Source: a virus. From it: 39,815 nucleotides of DNA. The stretch covers positions 1 to 39,815 of the IMG/VR virus record IMGVR_UViG_3300047166_000010. One strand, given 5' to 3'. The translations under genes and the position numbers were made by a program. Within the stretch, counting starts at the first letter, position 1; each line of letters starts with the position of its first letter. This document shows, piece by piece, positions 6,027 through 36,276 of this stretch. The notes below the pieces were generated by a model that saw nothing but the letters and a program-made list of their open reading frames with translations, did no database searches and had not been told where the DNA came from.

Positions 6027-8192
6027 TTACTCCGGTTTACTGTCTGCCCGTTCCGCTGCGGCCAATGTTTCGCGCCGCGCAACCGCTTCGTGTTTCGCTT
6101 CCGCGTGTGTGTTGAGTAATTGCGCGCCGGCTTGAATTTCCGCGACGTCGCGCGCCGTGACCGCTTGCGCGTGCGTGGTAAATCGCTTGGTCTGATCCGC
6201 TTCGTGATCTTTGATGATTCCCGAATGAATCTTTTCGCGCTCTACGTGCATCCACCCTTGCTCAATTGCGGTCTTATATTTGAGTTCGAGTTGCGCGTGC
6301 TGCAATTCCTGTTGCATTTGCTGCATTTGGTTTTGCAGGGCGGTCACGACCGCTTGCGCCTCTTTCGGCAAATTCTTGATGGTCTGTTGAATGCCGGCGG
6401 GTGTCGTGGGCGCGAGCCGGTCTGCCAGGTCGGATGCGCCGGCAAAGTCCATATTGCGCACCACCAAATCAGCGCCCACCTTGCTAATGACTTCCGCGAG
6501 CGGGGTATTTAGCAATTCGATCATCGATTCGGCGCCCTCCATGCGCTTCGTCTCATACCCCGGCCCGGTGTCCATCACGACGTCATACCGGCCCACGCTC
6601 ATGTCATTCTTGATTTCCATGATTGCGGGGTTTTGCGCGGACGGTTGCGGCTGATTAAGCGCTTCCATCGAGGGCATGCCATCTTCACCGATGATGCGTT
6701 GCATGCGCTGCGTATCGTAGTAGGCGGGAATGAGGCTTAGGAGAATCCGGCCCGTGTGCGATATGGCGCGGGTTTGATTGTCGTAATACTGGTAATGTCC
6801 AATGTCCGAGAGAGCCTGACGCCGTTGTAACGCCACCCCGGATATCGCCGCCCCCGGAACATCGGCGGACGGATCATGCGGCATGCCGGCCACCGCCATA
6901 AGGTCTTGCTGCGCGCCTTGCGCCGCTTGGACCGCGCCCGCCGGTACCGGAACGGGCTGCATACGTTGTGGCGGCGGCAAAACTTGTTTAGACCCGTCCG
7001 GTTGCTCCACATACGCCGGTTCATACACCAGAGCGCTATACGGTTTTTGGTTCGCATCCTTCCATTCCGGGTGCCCGTCTAACTGTCCCGCGGCCACTAC
7101 CCACGGCGCCTTGGGCGCGAGCGCCAATAGTTCGGTTTCCATCGTGCGCCAGTAGTTATACATGCGCGCCGGGTCCATCAGGTCGGCCACCATGCCCTTA
7201 CGCTTGGCGCGGCCGTTGATGTCGACCACATTGCCCTCGCACCGGATAATGGGTATCCATTTATCGGGTAGCGGGTCCGCGCCCATCGCGCGCCGATCCA
7301 CGATGGCTTGACCGTTCAATTTGTACCACTCCACCGTCTGCCGCTCGCTTGGGCGCGTGATCTTTTTACCCTTGCCGTCTCGCGCGTAGTCGACGCGGGC
7401 GCGCGATAGATCATCGGCCAGGGCGTCTATCTGATCGTCAAACAACGCCATACCATTAGTCATCTTATAGAGCGTCGCTTTCGTCTTGCGGATGCGGTAG
7501 TACTCGGCTAGCCGGATTTCCTCTTTCGATTCCCAATCCGCCCAGTCATCCCCTAGCCCCGCGGTGCGCTGAAATTCCACATTCGCGGCGTTCGGATACT
7601 CGCGCTTGTAATCGGCGCGTTTCATCTTTTCCGAGATGATGCACCACTCGGCGTCCTCGGCGGTTGGCAGCACCGCGGCGGGGTCCATATAGACCGTGAA
7701 CGGATTGCGGATCGCTACAATCTGCAATTCTTGGTCAAAACTATCCGCGTCGACGTAGTCGGACTTGACCCGCCAGTAACCCCAGCCGATGGTTACCGCA
7801 GACTCGCCGCCGGTGTCGTAGGCAATCGATGCGGTTGAGAGGTTTTCAATGTGGCGGATTAAACCGCCGATCACGTTCGCTTTCGCGACGTCGGCGCCGT
7901 CGCCCACCGGATGCACTTTGATTCGCGGGCGTTGCTGGCGCATGTTATTGACCACGCGCTTAACGAACGTATTCGTGTGATTAATCGTGAGCGAAGGGCG
8001 CTTATCAATCTTGCGCTGCGAGTACAGGTCATCCGGCCATTGCTGACCGTCGCGGAAGTTCAACGCCTCAATACCGCGCGCGCGGTTTTCGCTTTCCGCC
8101 TCGCTCGCTATCCGCAACCGCTCGGCGCACTCTTTCACGATTTCCGCATCGGTGACCGCTTGCCGGTCCATCTCGCGCGGAATGTGGGGCAT
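6027..8192 (-). CDS. portal protein, P22 gp1-like
   Basis: 721 residues, nearly the length of P22 gp1 (725). The N-terminus contains NFRDGQQWPDDLYSQRKIDKRPSLTINHTN, the typical opening of P22-type portals. It is followed by the NMRQQRPRIKVHP segment, and in the middle by the crown/wing region with YNYWRTMETE. The C-terminal 130 residues are Gln/Ala/Glu-rich and helical (LQNQMQQMQQELQHAQLELK), corresponding to the long barrel helices. It forms the dodecameric DNA gate at the packaging vertex and works with the terminase upstream. It lies six bases from the scaffold gene. Confidence 0.92.
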   Translation of the reverse strand: MPHIPREMDRQAVTDAEIVKECAERLRIASEAESENRARGIEALNFRDGQQWPDDLYSQRKIDKRPSLTINHTNTFVKRVVNNMRQQRPRIKVHPVGDGADVAKANVIGGLIRHIENLSTASIAYDTGGESAVTIGWGYWRVKSDYVDADSFDQELQIVAIRNPFTVYMDPAAVLPTAEDAEWCIISEKMKRADYKREYPNAANVEFQRTAGLGDDWADWESKEEIRLAEYYRIRKTKATLYKMTNGMALFDDQIDALADDLSRARVDYARDGKGKKITRPSERQTVEWYKLNGQAIVDRRAMGADPLPDKWIPIIRCEGNVVDINGRAKRKGMVADLMDPARMYNYWRTMETELLALAPKAPWVVAAGQLDGHPEWKDANQKPYSALVYEPAYVEQPDGSKQVLPPPQRMQPVPVPAGAVQAAQGAQQDLMAVAGMPHDPSADVPGAAISGVALQRRQALSDIGHYQYYDNQTRAISHTGRILLSLIPAYYDTQRMQRIIGEDGMPSMEALNQPQPSAQNPAIMEIKNDMSVGRYDVVMDTGPGYETKRMEGAESMIELLNTPLAEVISKVGADLVVRNMDFAGASDLADRLAPTTPAGIQQTIKNLPKEAQAVVTALQNQMQQMQQELQHAQLELKYKTAIEQGWMHVEREKIHSGIIKDHEADQTKRFTTHAQAVTARDVAEIQAGAQLLNTHAEAKHEAVARRETLAAAERADSKPE

Positions 8193-10352: not shown

Positions 10353-11129
10353 CTACTGCAACCACCCCAAGCCATCGGCGCGCACGGTGCCAAACTTTTG
10401 TTCGAACTGCGGCGGCTTTATTTTCTTAGACTCCGTGACCGCATACCGGCGCATCATCATGGCGTAGCGGGTAGCGCTCATCAGGTCATCGTTTAGCTTC
10501 ACGATTAACCCTTCCTTACGGTGGTAAATATTGAACTCCTCAAACCAATCGGCCAGGTGCGCAAACACTAATAGGCGACCCGTCTGCATACGGTCCAACA
10601 TTTCCGTAACGCCGGCTTCAAGTCCCGACGTGCCATCGTTGAACGTCGCGCGCACTTTCAAAAGGTTCAACCCTTGCGCGCGGTATTGCGCCGCCAACTG
10701 TTCGCCCGACCCCTTATCATGCTGTAGACCGTCATGCGGCCAGGCAAGAGGCAACCATTGACCCCAATGGCGGATAGACGAAGCAAACATCACGGGCGTC
10801 TGTTCGCGCGCGCGATGCGTCGCCATGACATACAGGATGTCCGTATCCCGGTCCCATGCGCAGCGCACCGCGGCGCTAGGGTGATTCCATCCAAAATCGA
10901 TACCGCCGATCTGTACCCAGTGCTCAGGGATAGCGAAGGCGGTAACGGTGATGTCGTCTTGATTAACCGGAAACACTTTACCGCTCCCTAGCTGCGGAAT
11001 TCCTTTTGTGCGCGCCTCGCGTTCATGCGCGGGGTAACTCGCTATAATCGCGGCGCGTTGCTCAGCGTCAAAATGCCCCGCGTCCTCGATACCGGCTTGG
11101 ATGACTATGCGACCGTTGTGCTTAGCCAT
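10353..11129 (-). CDS. large terminase, C-terminal (nuclease) part, separated by an in-frame stop
   Basis: 258 residues matching the second half of P22 gp2-type large terminase. The first part (IEDAGHFDAEQRAAIIASYP, then REARTKGIPQLGSGKVFPV) is the end of the ATPase region. The RNaseH-fold nuclease starts at GGIDFGWNHPSAAV with Asp78 as first metal ligand, and a late acidic pair lies in VKLNDDLMSATRYAMM. It is in the same frame as the 5' part; only TAA and one GCA codon lie between that stop and this ATG. No good ribosome site precedes the ATG. It cuts concatemeric DNA during headful packaging. Read through, the two parts give about 489 residues against 499 in P22, so nothing is missing except the stop codon. 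Confidence 0.88.
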   Translation of the reverse strand: MAKHNGRIVIQAGIEDAGHFDAEQRAAIIASYPAHEREARTKGIPQLGSGKVFPVNQDDITVTAFAIPEHWVQIGGIDFGWNHPSAAVRCAWDRDTDILYVMATHRAREQTPVMFASSIRHWGQWLPLAWPHDGLQHDKGSGEQLAAQYRAQGLNLLKVRATFNDGTSGLEAGVTEMLDRMQTGRLLVFAHLADWFEEFNIYHRKEGLIVKLNDDLMSATRYAMMMRRYAVTESKKIKPPQFEQKFGTVRADGLGWLQ

Positions 11130-11132
11130 TGC

Positions 11133-11822
11133 TTATGCAGCTTTATCCGGCATCAAAAAGCGCATCATCACTTCGGACATCCCAAGCAAAGGGGTACAGG
11201 TCATCGAGACGATTCCGCCTGTTTCGTTGGTGCGCGTCAGCGCTTCGGTATAGATGTTGATCGGGCTTTCTTCGTCCATCCAGACCACTTCAAGCGCCGC
11301 GCCTTGCCATTTTTCGCGGCCCTTTTCATATGATTTAAATGCGACCGATGAGTAACCGCCGGATGCATGTCGAATCGATGCCATATCAATTGCGCCGGCT
11401 AACCCGCGCGACGCACTGACATCCACAATGCATTCTTTCGGGATGGCCCCCGTACCGTAGAGTTCCTTGCGCTCCGGTGGCCCAAATAATTTGGCTTGCA
11501 CCACGTCCCGCGTTGATTCGCCCGTGACCCCAGCGGCCCACGCGCGCACCGGCTTATCAAATACCTTGCCGGCCCACCATTCGGGATAAATGCCAGTCAA
11601 GTGCATGGCGACTTCGAACGCGCCGGCTTGCGTCTTGCCGCAGCGGTTGCCGGCTAGGAATAGCCGCTCGCGGTACTCTGCGCCCGCGTCGTGAAATTCA
11701 CGTTGTTTCGGGTATGGTGCGTAACTTAGTAATCGATTTTGGCTTTGCCGCTTTTCCATTTCCTTCATCAACGCCGACAGAAAGGCGTGATCTAAGGTGC
11801 TCGATTCCGGCGGCAAGCTCAT
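11133..11822 (-). CDS. large terminase, N-terminal (ATPase) part, ends at an in-frame TAA
   Basis: 229 residues. It contains YAPYPKQREFHDAG, Walker A LAGNRCGKT (56-64), Walker B VVWMDEE (179-185) and the coupling motif TCTPLLG (208-214), all typical of P22-type large terminase. The frame stops at TAA after MPDKAA, within the ATPase region rather than in a domain linker, and continues in the same frame into the nuclease part. It powers DNA translocation through the portal. The ATG start overlaps the small-terminase frame by 125 bases. A later Met (residue 19) would reduce the overlap, but the helical N-terminus resembles that of P22 gp2. See the finding on the stop codon. Confidence 0.9.
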   Translation of the reverse strand: MSLPPESSTLDHAFLSALMKEMEKRQSQNRLLSYAPYPKQREFHDAGAEYRERLFLAGNRCGKTQAGAFEVAMHLTGIYPEWWAGKVFDKPVRAWAAGVTGESTRDVVQAKLFGPPERKELYGTGAIPKECIVDVSASRGLAGAIDMASIRHASGGYSSVAFKSYEKGREKWQGAALEVVWMDEESPINIYTEALTRTNETGGIVSMTCTPLLGMSEVMMRFLMPDKAA

Positions 11823-12171
11823 CGTCAGTCAGTTCCTCAAGCGGCGTCGCCTGTTCGATCTGTTTCGGCATCAAGGATGCGATGACCCGCACGTACCCCA
11901 TGGGGTCAATGGCGCGGGCGCGCTGAATCGCTTCCTTGCCGTGGATGTCGAAGTCATTCGCCAGGGCGGATATAAACGACCCTTGCAAGCGGTTCCGCGC
12001 GTTGCTGCGCGGCGGCGTCTGCCCTTTTTTGAATAGGTACGGCTTTAAGCGGTTTAAACGCGCCGCTTTATCGTTCGACTTTTTTTGATTGATCGCATTG
12101 GCCGCCGCAATTTCCTCAGGTGTAGCCGGCAGTAGTTCAAGCGTCGGCGGCGGCGGCTGCGGTCGTTTCAA
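11698..12171 (-). CDS. putative small terminase subunit
   Basis: 157 residues if it starts at the TTG just after the co-chaperonin gene. An ATG start at 12246 or 12231 would overlap that gene by 55-70 bases and add an Arg-rich shadow-like tail. The body reads FKKGQTPPRSNARNRLQGSF, SALANDFDIHGKEAIQ and MGYVRVIASLMPKQIEQ. That block is typical of proteins encoded directly before P22-type large terminases and used as DNA-recognition subunits. The C-terminus is an acidic helix then a basic tail. Role: recognise the packaging site and load the large subunit. The family call is from block pattern and position. Confidence 0.7.
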   Translation of the reverse strand: MKRPQPPPPTLELLPATPEEIAAANAINQKKSNDKAARLNRLKPYLFKKGQTPPRSNARNRLQGSFISALANDFDIHGKEAIQRARAIDPMGYVRVIASLMPKQIEQATPLEELTDDELAAGIEHLRSRLSVGVDEGNGKAAKPKSITKLRTIPETT

Positions 12172-12176
12172 GGGGG

Positions 12177-12599
12177 TTAGTCTCGATCGTGTAGCGCGGC
12201 CACGTCTTGCTCGCGGCAAATGATGCACCATGCACCATCCGCCCACACTTTGGGGAACAAGTAACCGCCAATCTCAAGGCCGCCCAGTTCCACGATGTCA
12301 CCCACGCGCACCTCGGTCGGGCGAAACACCCGCGAGGGCGTGATGGTGTGATACGGCACCGGGCGCCCATCCTTGCCGGGTTTGGTGCCGCGTTCGTGGA
12401 TATTGGGATAACACCCCGGACCCACCGCAATCACGGTGCCGCGCGTCACTTCGCCGGAATACTCCGCGTCTACCGTGTCGGACCACTTGAGCGGCAAGGG
12501 TTTGACAATGATTTGATCGCGCAACGGGCGAATATCAAGTTCCGGCGCAATGAAGTTTAGGCCGCGGTCGCTTAAGCGGACCCCGGATACGCCGCTCAT
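12177..12599 (-). CDS. GroES-like co-chaperonin
   Basis: 140 residues. The core (about 22-138) has the GroES pattern: IRPLRDQIIVKPLPL at the start, GEVTRGTVIAVGPGCYPN, then VRVGDIVELGGLEIGGYLFP and a final strand CIICREQDVAAL. Host GroES is about 97 residues. The extra length is a central basic loop (ERGTKPGKDGRPVPYHTITP) where the mobile loop and insert would lie. Phage GroES homologs (T4 gp31 type) help GroEL fold coat protein. Position just before terminase and capsid genes fits. Its ATG overlaps the stop of the upstream small gene (ATGA). Confidence 0.8.
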   Translation of the reverse strand: MSGVSGVRLSDRGLNFIAPELDIRPLRDQIIVKPLPLKWSDTVDAEYSGEVTRGTVIAVGPGCYPNIHERGTKPGKDGRPVPYHTITPSRVFRPTEVRVGDIVELGGLEIGGYLFPKVWADGAWCIICREQDVAALHDRD

Positions 12600-32244: not shown

Positions 32245-34215
32245 TCACTTCGGCACATGATCGATGCCGGCGCCAGGCTTGAGCGAATCGCTAACCCATT
32301 TATCGTTACGCCAGTTTTCAAACTCTTCCCGCACACCGGTACCTAGCTTCAGTTTGCTTGTTGCGGCATTGGCTGAGTGTTCCGCTAAAGCGGCGGCGCC
32401 AGACGCAACACGCTTCGCCACCTGCGATACGACGCTTGTCCCGGAATTATTGAAGCTGTATCCGGTCGGTTGACGTTGCGTGATGCGGGCGACGTCGCCT
32501 AATCTAAATGCCTTATCCGCTGAGTCGGGGTCCATCAGATATTTGATGCGCGGTTGCAATTCATTAAACCGCGTGTTGTAACCGGCCTGAGAAAAATTCC
32601 CATCATTTCGATATGGGTCGATGCCCGCCGCTTTTTTTAGTTCATTAACGACCGATCCGGCAATCGCGCCCTTCGCGTCGGGATTGTCGGCAAGGTTAGC
32701 TTGAGCGTTGGACAAGTCCGCTTTATTCCCTTTGAGAAAGTACCTTTCCATGTACCCTTTTGCTTCCGGCGATAAGCGACGCGAGTCTGGCGTACTCGGC
32801 ACCCCATCGTTAACGGCGGCGTCCATGGCGGGGTCTGCGCGAAGCATGGCGTACTTATTGGCGGTCGCGGCTCGCGCTTCCCTATTCATGGCCGCGAGTT
32901 TGGGGTCTAAGTTAGGGAACTGGTAATTCTCTACCGCATCTCGCGCCGCACTCACCGCAAGACCCGCATTACCATCGCCCGCTCGCTCGGCTTTGCGCTG
33001 CGCCGCCGCTAGATTCGTTTTCAAGTTATCCCACCGTTCGATCGTGAACGGTTCGCCGTCATCAATGTCTTTAATGTCGCCGGCCACTTCGCTGGGTAGA
33101 TACCGGGTTTTACCCGCCTTTTTCAGAGCGGCGCCCACTTGCGCGGTAAAGTCGCCCGTTTCTAGCGGTAGAGCGCCGCCGGCCGCGGCTTGGAATTTTT
33201 CCCATTTTGCTTTAGCGTCTGCGGCAATCGGTGCATATTTATCCTTGTAAGCATCGATGACGGTCTGCGCGTTGGCTTCGTGGTCAACTGCGGCAGCGGG
33301 CGCGACATCCTCTTTAATGCCGTTCAACCCGTCTATGAGTTTTTGATTCGTCTGTGCCATGCGTTCCGCGAAGGCAGGGTTTTTGTTGCGCGTGTTGAAC
33401 TCGCTAGAGAGTTGCGCCCCGTCCCCGGTGGCTTGCCCAGCGGTTAGATTTATACCGAACTCATCCGCCTTTAGGTGATTTTGTACCGCTTCCAAGTTAA
33501 GCGGCTTGGTTCCATTCCCGGACATGCCTTGAATGGCAGCGCGCAGCGGTTGGCTTGCGCGTGACACATCCGGCGCGGCGGCAGCGGCGCCCATATTCGT
33601 TCCACTCTGCGCGACTGATCGATTAAGCGCCGCTTGCGTGGCATCAACGCCGGTTGCACTTGCGGGCGCCCCGGTGGCCGTGCGCGCGCCGAATGCCTCA
33701 CCCAGCATGCGCGAGCCTTTCACCACCGGCGCCGCTACGGGCGCAATGTTCGCAACGTCCCCCGCAACCCCCGCGGCTTGATGCACAATATCGTGCGTGG
33801 TAGGACTGGCGGTTTCTAGTGCCCTATCACCGCTTCGTGCCAGGTCGACACCCTGCTTAACGCCCGGTAGTTGCGCGATGTCGCCTAATAGTTGCCGCCC
33901 GCCCTCACCTATGGGAACTTGCGTTGCTCGGACTATTGAAGGGTCGGGCGCGTCAGTGTCGCCGCCCGTAACACGTCGATACAAATCGACCGCGGCATGT
34001 GCGGCGCCGTGGGGGATGTTGGCTACCCCCGCGCCAAGTATTTCAGACGGTCCTAATAGGTTTTCTTCCGCCCATCCAACCCGCTTAGGCTTTGACGCAT
34101 CCGGCTTCGCCGCGGCTATGACATCATCATCATATTTTCGCGCGGGCGTGGCGTCGCTCGTTCCGCCCGTTGCCGCGACGACATCATCATCATATTGACG
34201 CGCGTTACTTGGCAT
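32245..34215 (-). CDS. ejection (internal virion) protein, gp16 position
   Basis: 656 residues, the third and largest of three proteins in the P22 gp7-gp20-gp16 position. The N-terminus carries a duplicated element (ARQYDDDVVAAT and ARKYDDDVIAAA, 20 residues apart). Residues 50-200 include a Gly/Ala-rich amphipathic stretch (GEGGRQLLGDIAQLPGVKQG, VAPVVKGSRMLGEAFG). The remainder is long Ala/Lys/Asp helices. Such proteins leave the capsid with DNA and help it cross the envelope. Call rests on order, size and composition. ATG overlaps the upstream stop by a few bases. Confidence 0.7.
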   Translation of the reverse strand: MPSNARQYDDDVVAATGGTSDATPARKYDDDVIAAAKPDASKPKRVGWAEENLLGPSEILGAGVANIPHGAAHAAVDLYRRVTGGDTDAPDPSIVRATQVPIGEGGRQLLGDIAQLPGVKQGVDLARSGDRALETASPTTHDIVHQAAGVAGDVANIAPVAAPVVKGSRMLGEAFGARTATGAPASATGVDATQAALNRSVAQSGTNMGAAAAAPDVSRASQPLRAAIQGMSGNGTKPLNLEAVQNHLKADEFGINLTAGQATGDGAQLSSEFNTRNKNPAFAERMAQTNQKLIDGLNGIKEDVAPAAAVDHEANAQTVIDAYKDKYAPIAADAKAKWEKFQAAAGGALPLETGDFTAQVGAALKKAGKTRYLPSEVAGDIKDIDDGEPFTIERWDNLKTNLAAAQRKAERAGDGNAGLAVSAARDAVENYQFPNLDPKLAAMNREARAATANKYAMLRADPAMDAAVNDGVPSTPDSRRLSPEAKGYMERYFLKGNKADLSNAQANLADNPDAKGAIAGSVVNELKKAAGIDPYRNDGNFSQAGYNTRFNELQPRIKYLMDPDSADKAFRLGDVARITQRQPTGYSFNNSGTSVVSQVAKRVASGAAALAEHSANAATSKLKLGTGVREEFENWRNDKWVSDSLKPGAGIDHVPK

Positions 34216-35551
34216 TTCCCACCGTGTGATAGGAGGCGCGTTCGCGCTCTATGGCGTCCTGCATGGCGTCGCGGTCGCCTTTATAAGTACGCGTCAAGAA
34301 TTGGCGCCGCTCATTACTGCCAGGGGGTAACGCGTGAAGTTCAGCGGTCAAAGGATCGCGCCCGCCGCTTAAATGGTCATCGGCCAATTGAAACCCCGCT
34401 AGACCATACTTTGACTGATACGAATTTAAATTGTCTCGCCGTTCCTGAAACAGCCGATAAGTGCCGCGCATGGTATCCATGCGCGAGTGCACCACTTCAT
34501 TAGGTGACGTCTCATCGGGAAATTGTTCTAGCTGAGTAGCCAAACGCGCATCACTGCCCGCGTGAGCAGTAGCAGCATCTTTGAGCGTTCCCAATACCTT
34601 TTTAAGCTCGAATCGCGCAACCACGGACGGGTCATCGCTGCCCGCTTCCTTGCGCATATTGTCGGTGAATGCAGAGAATGTTCCGCTTTGAATCATATCG
34701 ACAAGCCGATCCGCTTGCTTAGTGAGTGCGATTTGACCCGGCGCGCTTTGAGCCGCGTCACTGACTTGCGCCGCCCGCTTAGTATCAATGTCTACCGCAC
34801 CCGTTGCCGCACCCGTTGCCGCCGCTACCTTGGTCGAGGATGGATTTAAACTGCTATCGCTTCCGGTTGCGTAGGTCGGCGCGCGTATCTGACCGGTATT
34901 TTTGTCCCGCACGACGGTCTGACCGGCCGCATTCGGCGCCATTTCAATCGGCGACTGACCGGACATGGTGCCCGCCATGGTGCTGACCACTTGCTGCAAT
35001 TGTTGCGGGCTCGCGGTCTGCGGCAAATGTGCCACCGTCGATAACACCATGCGTCTGAATTGCGGGTCCGGGTTTTGGTCTATTAGCTGATCGCTCGCGT
35101 TAATGATGTCTGTCATGCTCAAATCTGGCTTTCCCGCAAGCGCTTTCATCGTGCCGGCAATAGAGGTGCGCTGTGTATCGGTAAGATTCTGCGCCGTGGT
35201 CCGATTAGTTAGCGATTCGCCCGCGGCCGATAGCGCTTGCGTGCGTATTTGCTGCCCGTACACCGGCGCGCGCCGCGCGACTTCATCGCTAAACGCTTTG
35301 TCGTCGAATCCGCCATCGGGCGTGCGGAACCGATCGGCATTTTTAACCAAATCCGCCACGCCAGATAGTTCGGTATTCTTCTGTTGCGCTTGCGAGGCGT
35401 CGGCTTGCGCGGTCTGTTGTAACGCTTGCCCGGTCTGTAGGTCTTGCGCTTGCTTTTGCAGCGCTAGCTTTTTGCTTTGCAATCCCAACACGTCATTAAG
35501 CGTACCCATCACATCCGGCGATTTCACGTCGAGAGCGGGATAGTCAGCCAT
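34205..35551 (-). CDS. ejection protein, gp20 position
   Basis: 448 residues beginning MADYPALDVKSPDVMGTLND, then LQSKKLALQKQAQDLQTGQA, a Gln/Ala-rich helical N-terminus typical of P22 gp20-like DNA-transfer proteins. The middle is helical with Gln/Ser/Thr clusters, and a late Ala/Thr linker precedes a charged C-terminal domain (DETSPNEVVHSRMDTMRGTY). Packed with its two partner genes by short overlaps. Expected inside the capsid and ejected early in infection. Confidence 0.7.
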   Translation of the reverse strand: MADYPALDVKSPDVMGTLNDVLGLQSKKLALQKQAQDLQTGQALQQTAQADASQAQQKNTELSGVADLVKNADRFRTPDGGFDDKAFSDEVARRAPVYGQQIRTQALSAAGESLTNRTTAQNLTDTQRTSIAGTMKALAGKPDLSMTDIINASDQLIDQNPDPQFRRMVLSTVAHLPQTASPQQLQQVVSTMAGTMSGQSPIEMAPNAAGQTVVRDKNTGQIRAPTYATGSDSSLNPSSTKVAAATGAATGAVDIDTKRAAQVSDAAQSAPGQIALTKQADRLVDMIQSGTFSAFTDNMRKEAGSDDPSVVARFELKKVLGTLKDAATAHAGSDARLATQLEQFPDETSPNEVVHSRMDTMRGTYRLFQERRDNLNSYQSKYGLAGFQLADDHLSGGRDPLTAELHALPPGSNERRQFLTRTYKGDRDAMQDAIERERASYHTVGNAK

Positions 35552-36276
35552 TACCAGTTACCGGCAACGCCAAAGTCCGTACCGCCCATATTGGTATTAG
35601 GGTTAATAGCGGGAGTTCCGCCCCCACCGTACTGTGCCCATATGGCGGCGTTGGTGGCGCCGCCAGTCAACGCATTCGACGCACCCACGGCACCACTCGC
35701 CGCCGCGGTGCCAGCGCCTACCGTGGTCCCTGCTATGCCGCTCGCGTAGTTACTGCCGCCGGTGGCTTGGTTGCTCGCGGCCGATTCGCCGGTCTGCGCG
35801 ATGCTGTTTAAACGGTTAAACGTGTTGGTCTGTTGCGTCTGATATTGCTGGAACGCGTTGTTAAACGAGGTGTTGGCGTAATTCTGATTGAAGCTAATCA
35901 AATCCTTAAGCGCGGCGCCAGACTCGGCGCCTTGAGCGCTCGAATCTTGATTTAATACCCCTTGTTGCCCTTGCTGCATTTGGAACTGATACGCCGGGGA
36001 CAATGATTTAAACGTATCCGCGGTGAAGGGCGCGTTTAATGAACCATAGGACCCGCCTTGGCCCGTGTTCGCGCCGATGCCTAATAGGTTATTGAGCGCC
36101 CCTTGCGCTTGGTTGCCGGCAGCCACATAGGGCGCTTCGCGGCCGACTTGCGCGTTATACATGCTCGCTTGTTGCGCGGTCGCGTTGTTCTCTGCATTAG
36201 CTTGTGTGGTTGCGCCAAAAATGGATGACCCGGCGCCCACGACCGCGGCGCCGGCAATCGCACCGGCTATACACAT
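35551..36276 (-). CDS. ejection protein, gp7 position
   Basis: 241 residues. Opens MCIAGAIAGAAVVGAGSSIF, a Gly/Ala membrane-active type segment, followed by a Gln/Asn/Ala-rich helix (ANAENNATAQQASMYNAQVG) and YVAAGNQAQGALNNLLGIGA. A second Gly/Ala-rich region lies at 165-215. This pattern is common in the smallest of the three podovirus ejection proteins. Its stop overlaps the next start by one base. Confidence 0.75.
   Translation of the reverse strand: MCIAGAIAGAAVVGAGSSIFGATTQANAENNATAQQASMYNAQVGREAPYVAAGNQAQGALNNLLGIGANTGQGGSYGSLNAPFTADTFKSLSPAYQFQMQQGQQGVLNQDSSAQGAESGAALKDLISFNQNYANTSFNNAFQQYQTQQTNTFNRLNSIAQTGESAASNQATGGSNYASGIAGTTVGAGTAAASGAVGASNALTGGATNAAIWAQYGGGGTPAINPNTNMGGTDFGVAGNW

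Follow-up and report, generated by a model that had tools for sequence, protein, structure and literature searches.

A P22-type large terminase gene divided into two open reading frames inside its ATPase domain

The large terminase gene (TerL) of the virus analysed here is divided by an in-frame TAA into two open reading frames (ORFs), and it is very probably a P22-type large terminase in two pieces that are carried on one mRNA, translated separately and assembled as two proteins. The window, i.e. the whole stretch of DNA that was analysed, is a 39.8-kb linear virus record. Its genes include portal, capsid, integrase, Erf-like protein and replication initiation, indicating that it derives from a phage that is probably temperate; within the window no tRNA gene of any kind was found. 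The features needed below are the following.

11133..11822, minus strand: TerL-N, ATPase core of the large terminase (229 aa; Terminase_6N, 7.7e-18; phrog_31467, 4e-53)
11133..11135, minus strand: the in-frame TAA that ends TerL-N, placed in the loop that links the motif C helix to the first predicted lid strand
11130..11132, minus strand: 3-nt spacer GCA from stop to restart, as read in the sequence
10353..11129, minus strand: TerL-C, predicted lid sub-domain plus RNase H-like nuclease (258 aa, beginning MAKHNGRIVIQ; Terminase_6C, 1.6e-21)
11698..12246, minus strand: upstream overlapping ORF in the position of the terminase small subunit, putative (no PHROG match)
6027..8192, minus strand: portal protein, downstream in the same packaging module (phrog_156, 6e-116)

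Elsewhere in the window, two ORFs that adjoin a DNA ejection protein (35551-36276) gave no PHROG match and are candidates for ejection proteins (32245-34215, 656 aa; 34205-35551, 448 aa).

The interrupted gene and the position of its break

On the minus strand the junction reads GCT GCA TAA (11135-11133) GCA ATG (11129-11127) GCT AAG, such that the TerL-C ORF resumes in the frame of TerL-N 3 nt past the stop. TerL-N carries Walker A (GNRCGKT), Walker B (VVWMDEE) and motif C (TCTP) and ends in PDKAA followed by TAA. Each piece alone scored above the curated Pfam cut-off for its own domain, with the domains in the order 6N then 6C, and neither piece matched NCBIfam. Read through for analysis only, the joined frame has a length of 489 codons, with matches to Terminase_6N (1e-24) and Terminase_6C (5e-21); all columns that are invariant across 61 TerLs are kept, covering Walker A, Walker B, motif C and the acidic residues of the nuclease. 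The preliminary description had placed the TAA at these coordinates with the same frame running on, and had put the joined protein at about 489 residues with all motifs present; this proved correct on the minus strand, the strand itself having been left unstated. Nowhere else in the window are two open stretches in the same frame (each of at least 120 codons) parted by a single stop.

The window TerL resembles P22 gp2, sharing about 44% identity over 87% of the protein and 44% over the nuclease domain (structure 4dkw; VIA Z 30.5), but P22 encodes its large terminase as one gene. The window departs from the single-polypeptide habit of P22-type TerLs, since by the standard code it holds two ORFs. 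A single polypeptide is, however, not strictly defining for this type; many members of the family are split.

Window residues 29-278 align to the ATPase domain of P74-26 and residues 277-466 to the nuclease domain of P22, and therefore the break lies within the ATPase domain. The Terminase_6N profile is interrupted at the same place, with positions 1-152 in the N piece and positions 163-211 matching the C piece weakly, below the cut-off. In the predicted structure the loop bearing the stop comes after the motif C helix and leads into the strand with which the C-terminal part of the ATPase domain begins, and residues 233-235 form the sole internal segment with pLDDT below 50. With the core/lid border drawn according to the modelled secondary structure and general knowledge of TerL (the Foldseek and VIA tables hold no lid residue map), the site appears to coincide with the border between these two sub-domains. 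The earlier statement that the stop lies within the ATPase region and not on a border between domains is thus right for the Pfam domain, but it passes over the sub-domain border at which the break appears to lie. We classify a gene as split in the core/lid loop when two ORFs break after motif C and the C piece has its own start, and the window gene has this arrangement.

The loop itself is unusually long, exceeding that of L161, the closest intact relative, by 4 codons and that of most of 80 aligned relatives by about 8 codons, a feature absent from the preliminary description. A single point mutation as the cause of the split does not account for the longer loop. A tandem TAAGCA duplication in the loop was also considered and dropped, its spacing being 11 nt and out of phase with the 12-nt difference in length. 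Alignment with related terminases, proposed earlier as a way to identify the sense codon replaced by the stop, did not single out one codon: the loop with the stop varies in length, and most relatives lack a homologous residue there.

Breaks in the same loop among relatives

Relatives with two separate conserved ORFs, listed in the preliminary description as a refuting observation, were encountered many times, including within the window's own clade. The signature QAGIEDAGHF of the window C piece occurs in four other contigs only (L161, L007, L446 and L444), and together with the window these form one clade (support 100/100). TerL is intact in L161 and L007. In L446 it is split, with an N-half ending in PEQDH followed by TGA, a TTGA overlap and a C-half that starts at the overlapping TTG; this C-half start, MSAHKDRIVIQAGIEDAGHF (MSAHKDRIVIQ), equals in length the corresponding start of the window, MAKHNGRIVIQAGIEDAGHF (MAKHNGRIVIQ), and the two starts align. 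In L444 the gene is split by a 167-aa endonuclease ORF of HNH type (phrog_3322, 2e-34) whose ends each share a few bases with the adjoining half. Within the clade the sister of the window is intact L161 (99/97), and L446 groups with L444, so that either more than one split occurred or a single split was followed by rejoining in L161. The latter contig is the closest relative of the window (76% identity for TerL, 79% for portal and 90% for capsid). Its TerL (IMGVR 3300046662_000020, 6333-7784) has an odd loop, DVVVTG (GTG GTG GTT ACG GGG), and could be a re-fused gene, given the split genes of its near relatives L446 and L444.

Beyond the clade, in L155 and L224/L225 the break falls at the same site as in the window, and the two TerL halves occupy different frames and overlap by ATGA. 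A pattern consisting of ATGA seven codons ahead of the motif MTI[DE]D[AV]EHY was run on viral contigs and matched 82 stretches; the N-half lay upstream and ended within a few residues of a common point in 77 of the 80 loci examined, the remaining contigs ending too near to tell. When the motif was taken without the ATGA requirement, 15 of 80 were ATGA-split among the matches listed, from which we estimate that roughly one fifth of the TerLs of this motif class, in the matches listed, are split in this loop. Junctions in split relatives are mostly overlaps and include ATGA, GTGA, TTGA and TGATG, as well as gaps, some of them short and others of about 150-2400 nt. Some gapped loci hold an HNH gene between the halves (in L274 the gap matches HNH_3, E 4e-10). 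No Rfam intron was matched in 11 gapped split loci, and the 3-nt gap of the window leaves no room for one; an intron between the halves was rejected on these grounds.

A single shared ancestor for all splits is not supported: on a tree of 171 TerLs that lacked L446 and L444, the distribution of split genes takes no fewer than seven changes of state, and well-supported branches force four of these. The exact junction of the window (same frame, TAA-GCA-ATG) was seen in no relative, and the junction 21-mer was absent from the other contigs. No split example came from the nearest of the named isolate phages, Rhizobium RHph_N3_2 and RHEph18, each of which encodes TerL in a single gene; an entry in the match list annotated as a terminase beside a hypothetical protein proved to be merely an overlapping upstream gene.

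Scanning GTDB genomes with the split pattern gave 20 more matches, 18 of them in Mesorhizobium. In these Mesorhizobium-rich loci (L325-L344) the halves are often 200-2400 nt apart, with repeat-rich or unrelated DNA between them, and the genome holding L330 gave no match to Terminase_6C; some of these copies may therefore be decayed or domesticated. In four other loci (L250:3303-4952, L285:3304-4938, L295:3303-4952 and L302:8292-6553) the C-half ORF is 544-579 aa rather than about 250 aa, continuing in frame into downstream sequence.

Translation of the pieces and competing explanations

TerL-N has a good Shine-Dalgarno sequence (-6.2 kcal). The ribosome site of TerL-C is weak at -3.3 kcal, a value equalled or bettered by 37% of background ATGs and close to the median of the listed ORFs (-3.5), in agreement with the earlier remark that the second ATG lacks a good site; such a weak site fits termination and reinitiation across three bases. 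Anti-Shine-Dalgarno pairing is enriched at the C-half starts of split relatives (medians of -5.0 and -5.7 kcal versus -3.1 kcal for background ATGs). In comparison with L161, dN/dS was 0.12 for the N piece and 0.09 for the C piece with dS near saturation; because of that saturation, and because the L161 branch may partly predate the split, these values point only weakly to selection after it.

According to the model, one mRNA would carry TerL-N (the ATPase core) and TerL-C (the lid and nuclease). Ribosomes would terminate TerL-N at the TAA and probably reinitiate at the ATG three bases on, the putative reinitiation site being TAAGCAATG. The two products would then assemble non-covalently into a working packaging motor. 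A terminase of two polypeptides would account most simply for the window together with L446, L444 and the remaining split lineages.

Five options had been put forward without preference in the preliminary description, namely a sequencing or consensus error, a nonsense allele, readthrough, host suppression and a two-piece terminase. The last is supported. The shared site of the break, the matching start in L446, the conservation of both pieces and the low dN/dS make the other four less likely than two proteins, and all four now appear unlikely. To the reading that the TAA is an accident, either an error of sequencing or consensus building or a nonsense allele carried by some members of a population, with most such phages having an intact TerL, we attach little probability. 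It would agree with the intact gene of L161, with the solitary occurrence of such a stop in the window and with the failure to find a near-identical confirming copy among the contigs searched. However, the stop sits in precisely the loop that is also broken in two close relatives and in unrelated lineages, and the extra loop codons give both a start and an L446-like N-terminus to the C piece, for which a single base change is insufficient.

Programmed readthrough or host suppression would yield full-length TerL, with the stop setting its amount. We consider this very unlikely: it is not a solution that relatives could share, given that their halves are out of frame, 150-2400 nt apart or separated by an endonuclease gene, and the lack of any tRNA gene in the window speaks against suppression. 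Because the two window ORFs share a frame, readthrough would give a whole protein here and could operate in this one case, but it would fail in relatives whose halves differ in frame or have a gene between them. To our knowledge, a TAA with G as the next base is no recognised leaky context. General recoding was discarded, as it had been in the preliminary description: TAA terminates 19 of the 44 listed ORFs of the window, TGA and TAG also end genes, and there is no phage tRNA. Finally, the window could represent a dead or defective phage whose TerL is a decaying pseudogene, as some gapped prophage copies appear to be (e.g. the genome of L330 without its Terminase_6C match). This is extremely improbable for a gene in which both pieces are full length, hold all catalytic residues and show low dN/dS, in a genome with intact genes for portal, capsid and other structural proteins.

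Origin, precedents and consequences of the split

The break is recurrent and appears to be tolerated: it falls in a variable surface loop, the same loop in which relatives are cut. A likely origin would be the invasion of this loop by a free-standing HNH-type endonuclease gene that was later lost, leaving stop and start close together. For the window's own lineage such invasion and loss is plausible because an endonuclease gene still sits at the split in L444 and L274; at the split site of the window there is none, only the 3-nt gap.

Both two-gene terminases and genes broken by endonucleases are already known. Arthrobacter cluster AY phages have a two-gene large terminase (BillyTP, PMC11920828; BlueShadow, PMC12820723) that, like the window TerL, combines ATPase and nuclease functions. 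The AY genes are consecutive and overlapping, belong to another family (TerL_nuclease, PF20441) and are cut into 359 + 198 aa, by length the ATPase/nuclease border, whereas the window protein is cut into 229 + 258 aa inside the ATPase domain; the window thus shares neither the protein family nor the cut site that would place it with AY. PMC2988022 describes NrdA of the Aeromonas phage Aeh1 (Friedrich 2007), an essential enzyme which an HNH homing endonuclease has split into two ORFs and which is functional as two polypeptides, the T4 topoisomerase, a gene in pieces via a homing endonuclease, and a split DNA polymerase of unclear origin. The HNH-type genes between the TerL pieces of L444 and L274 recall the Aeh1 arrangement; unlike it, the window concerns a different enzyme, retains no endonuclease and encodes pieces of putative function. 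The TerL of ICP1 is split by an intron with splicing shown (PMC10448857), and that of phD2B has been attributed to an intron by inference (PMC4246154). The window coding sequence is similarly in two parts, but no intron was found in the 11 gapped relatives. In the literature searched, which covered few subscription papers, we found no description of a recurrent core/lid break in P22-type TerL and no paper using the phrase 'split terminase'.

More broadly, the core/lid loop may be a fission hot spot that HNH-type genes have entered repeatedly and that has split several times independently, with about one fifth of one motif class working as separate ATPase core and lid-nuclease subunits that have no covalent link between core and lid. 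We give this wider proposal an even chance of being correct. If the enzyme does work in the form of two separate proteins, its ATPase core and lid, usually viewed as one lever, would couple without a covalent link, and such phages would offer natural two-part motors for testing how ATP is converted to movement and how the balance between packaging and cutting is kept. It would also follow that annotation pipelines misread these genes and file the N piece under 'unknown function' (phrog_31467), and marker-gene trees may drop split-TerL phages or mistake them for sequencing errors. In PHROGs, phrog_31467 (261 aa) corresponds to the ATPase core piece, represented by window positions 11133-11822, L276:3643-4374 and L310:505-1299; its short length suggests that split genes have been clustered as a separate family.
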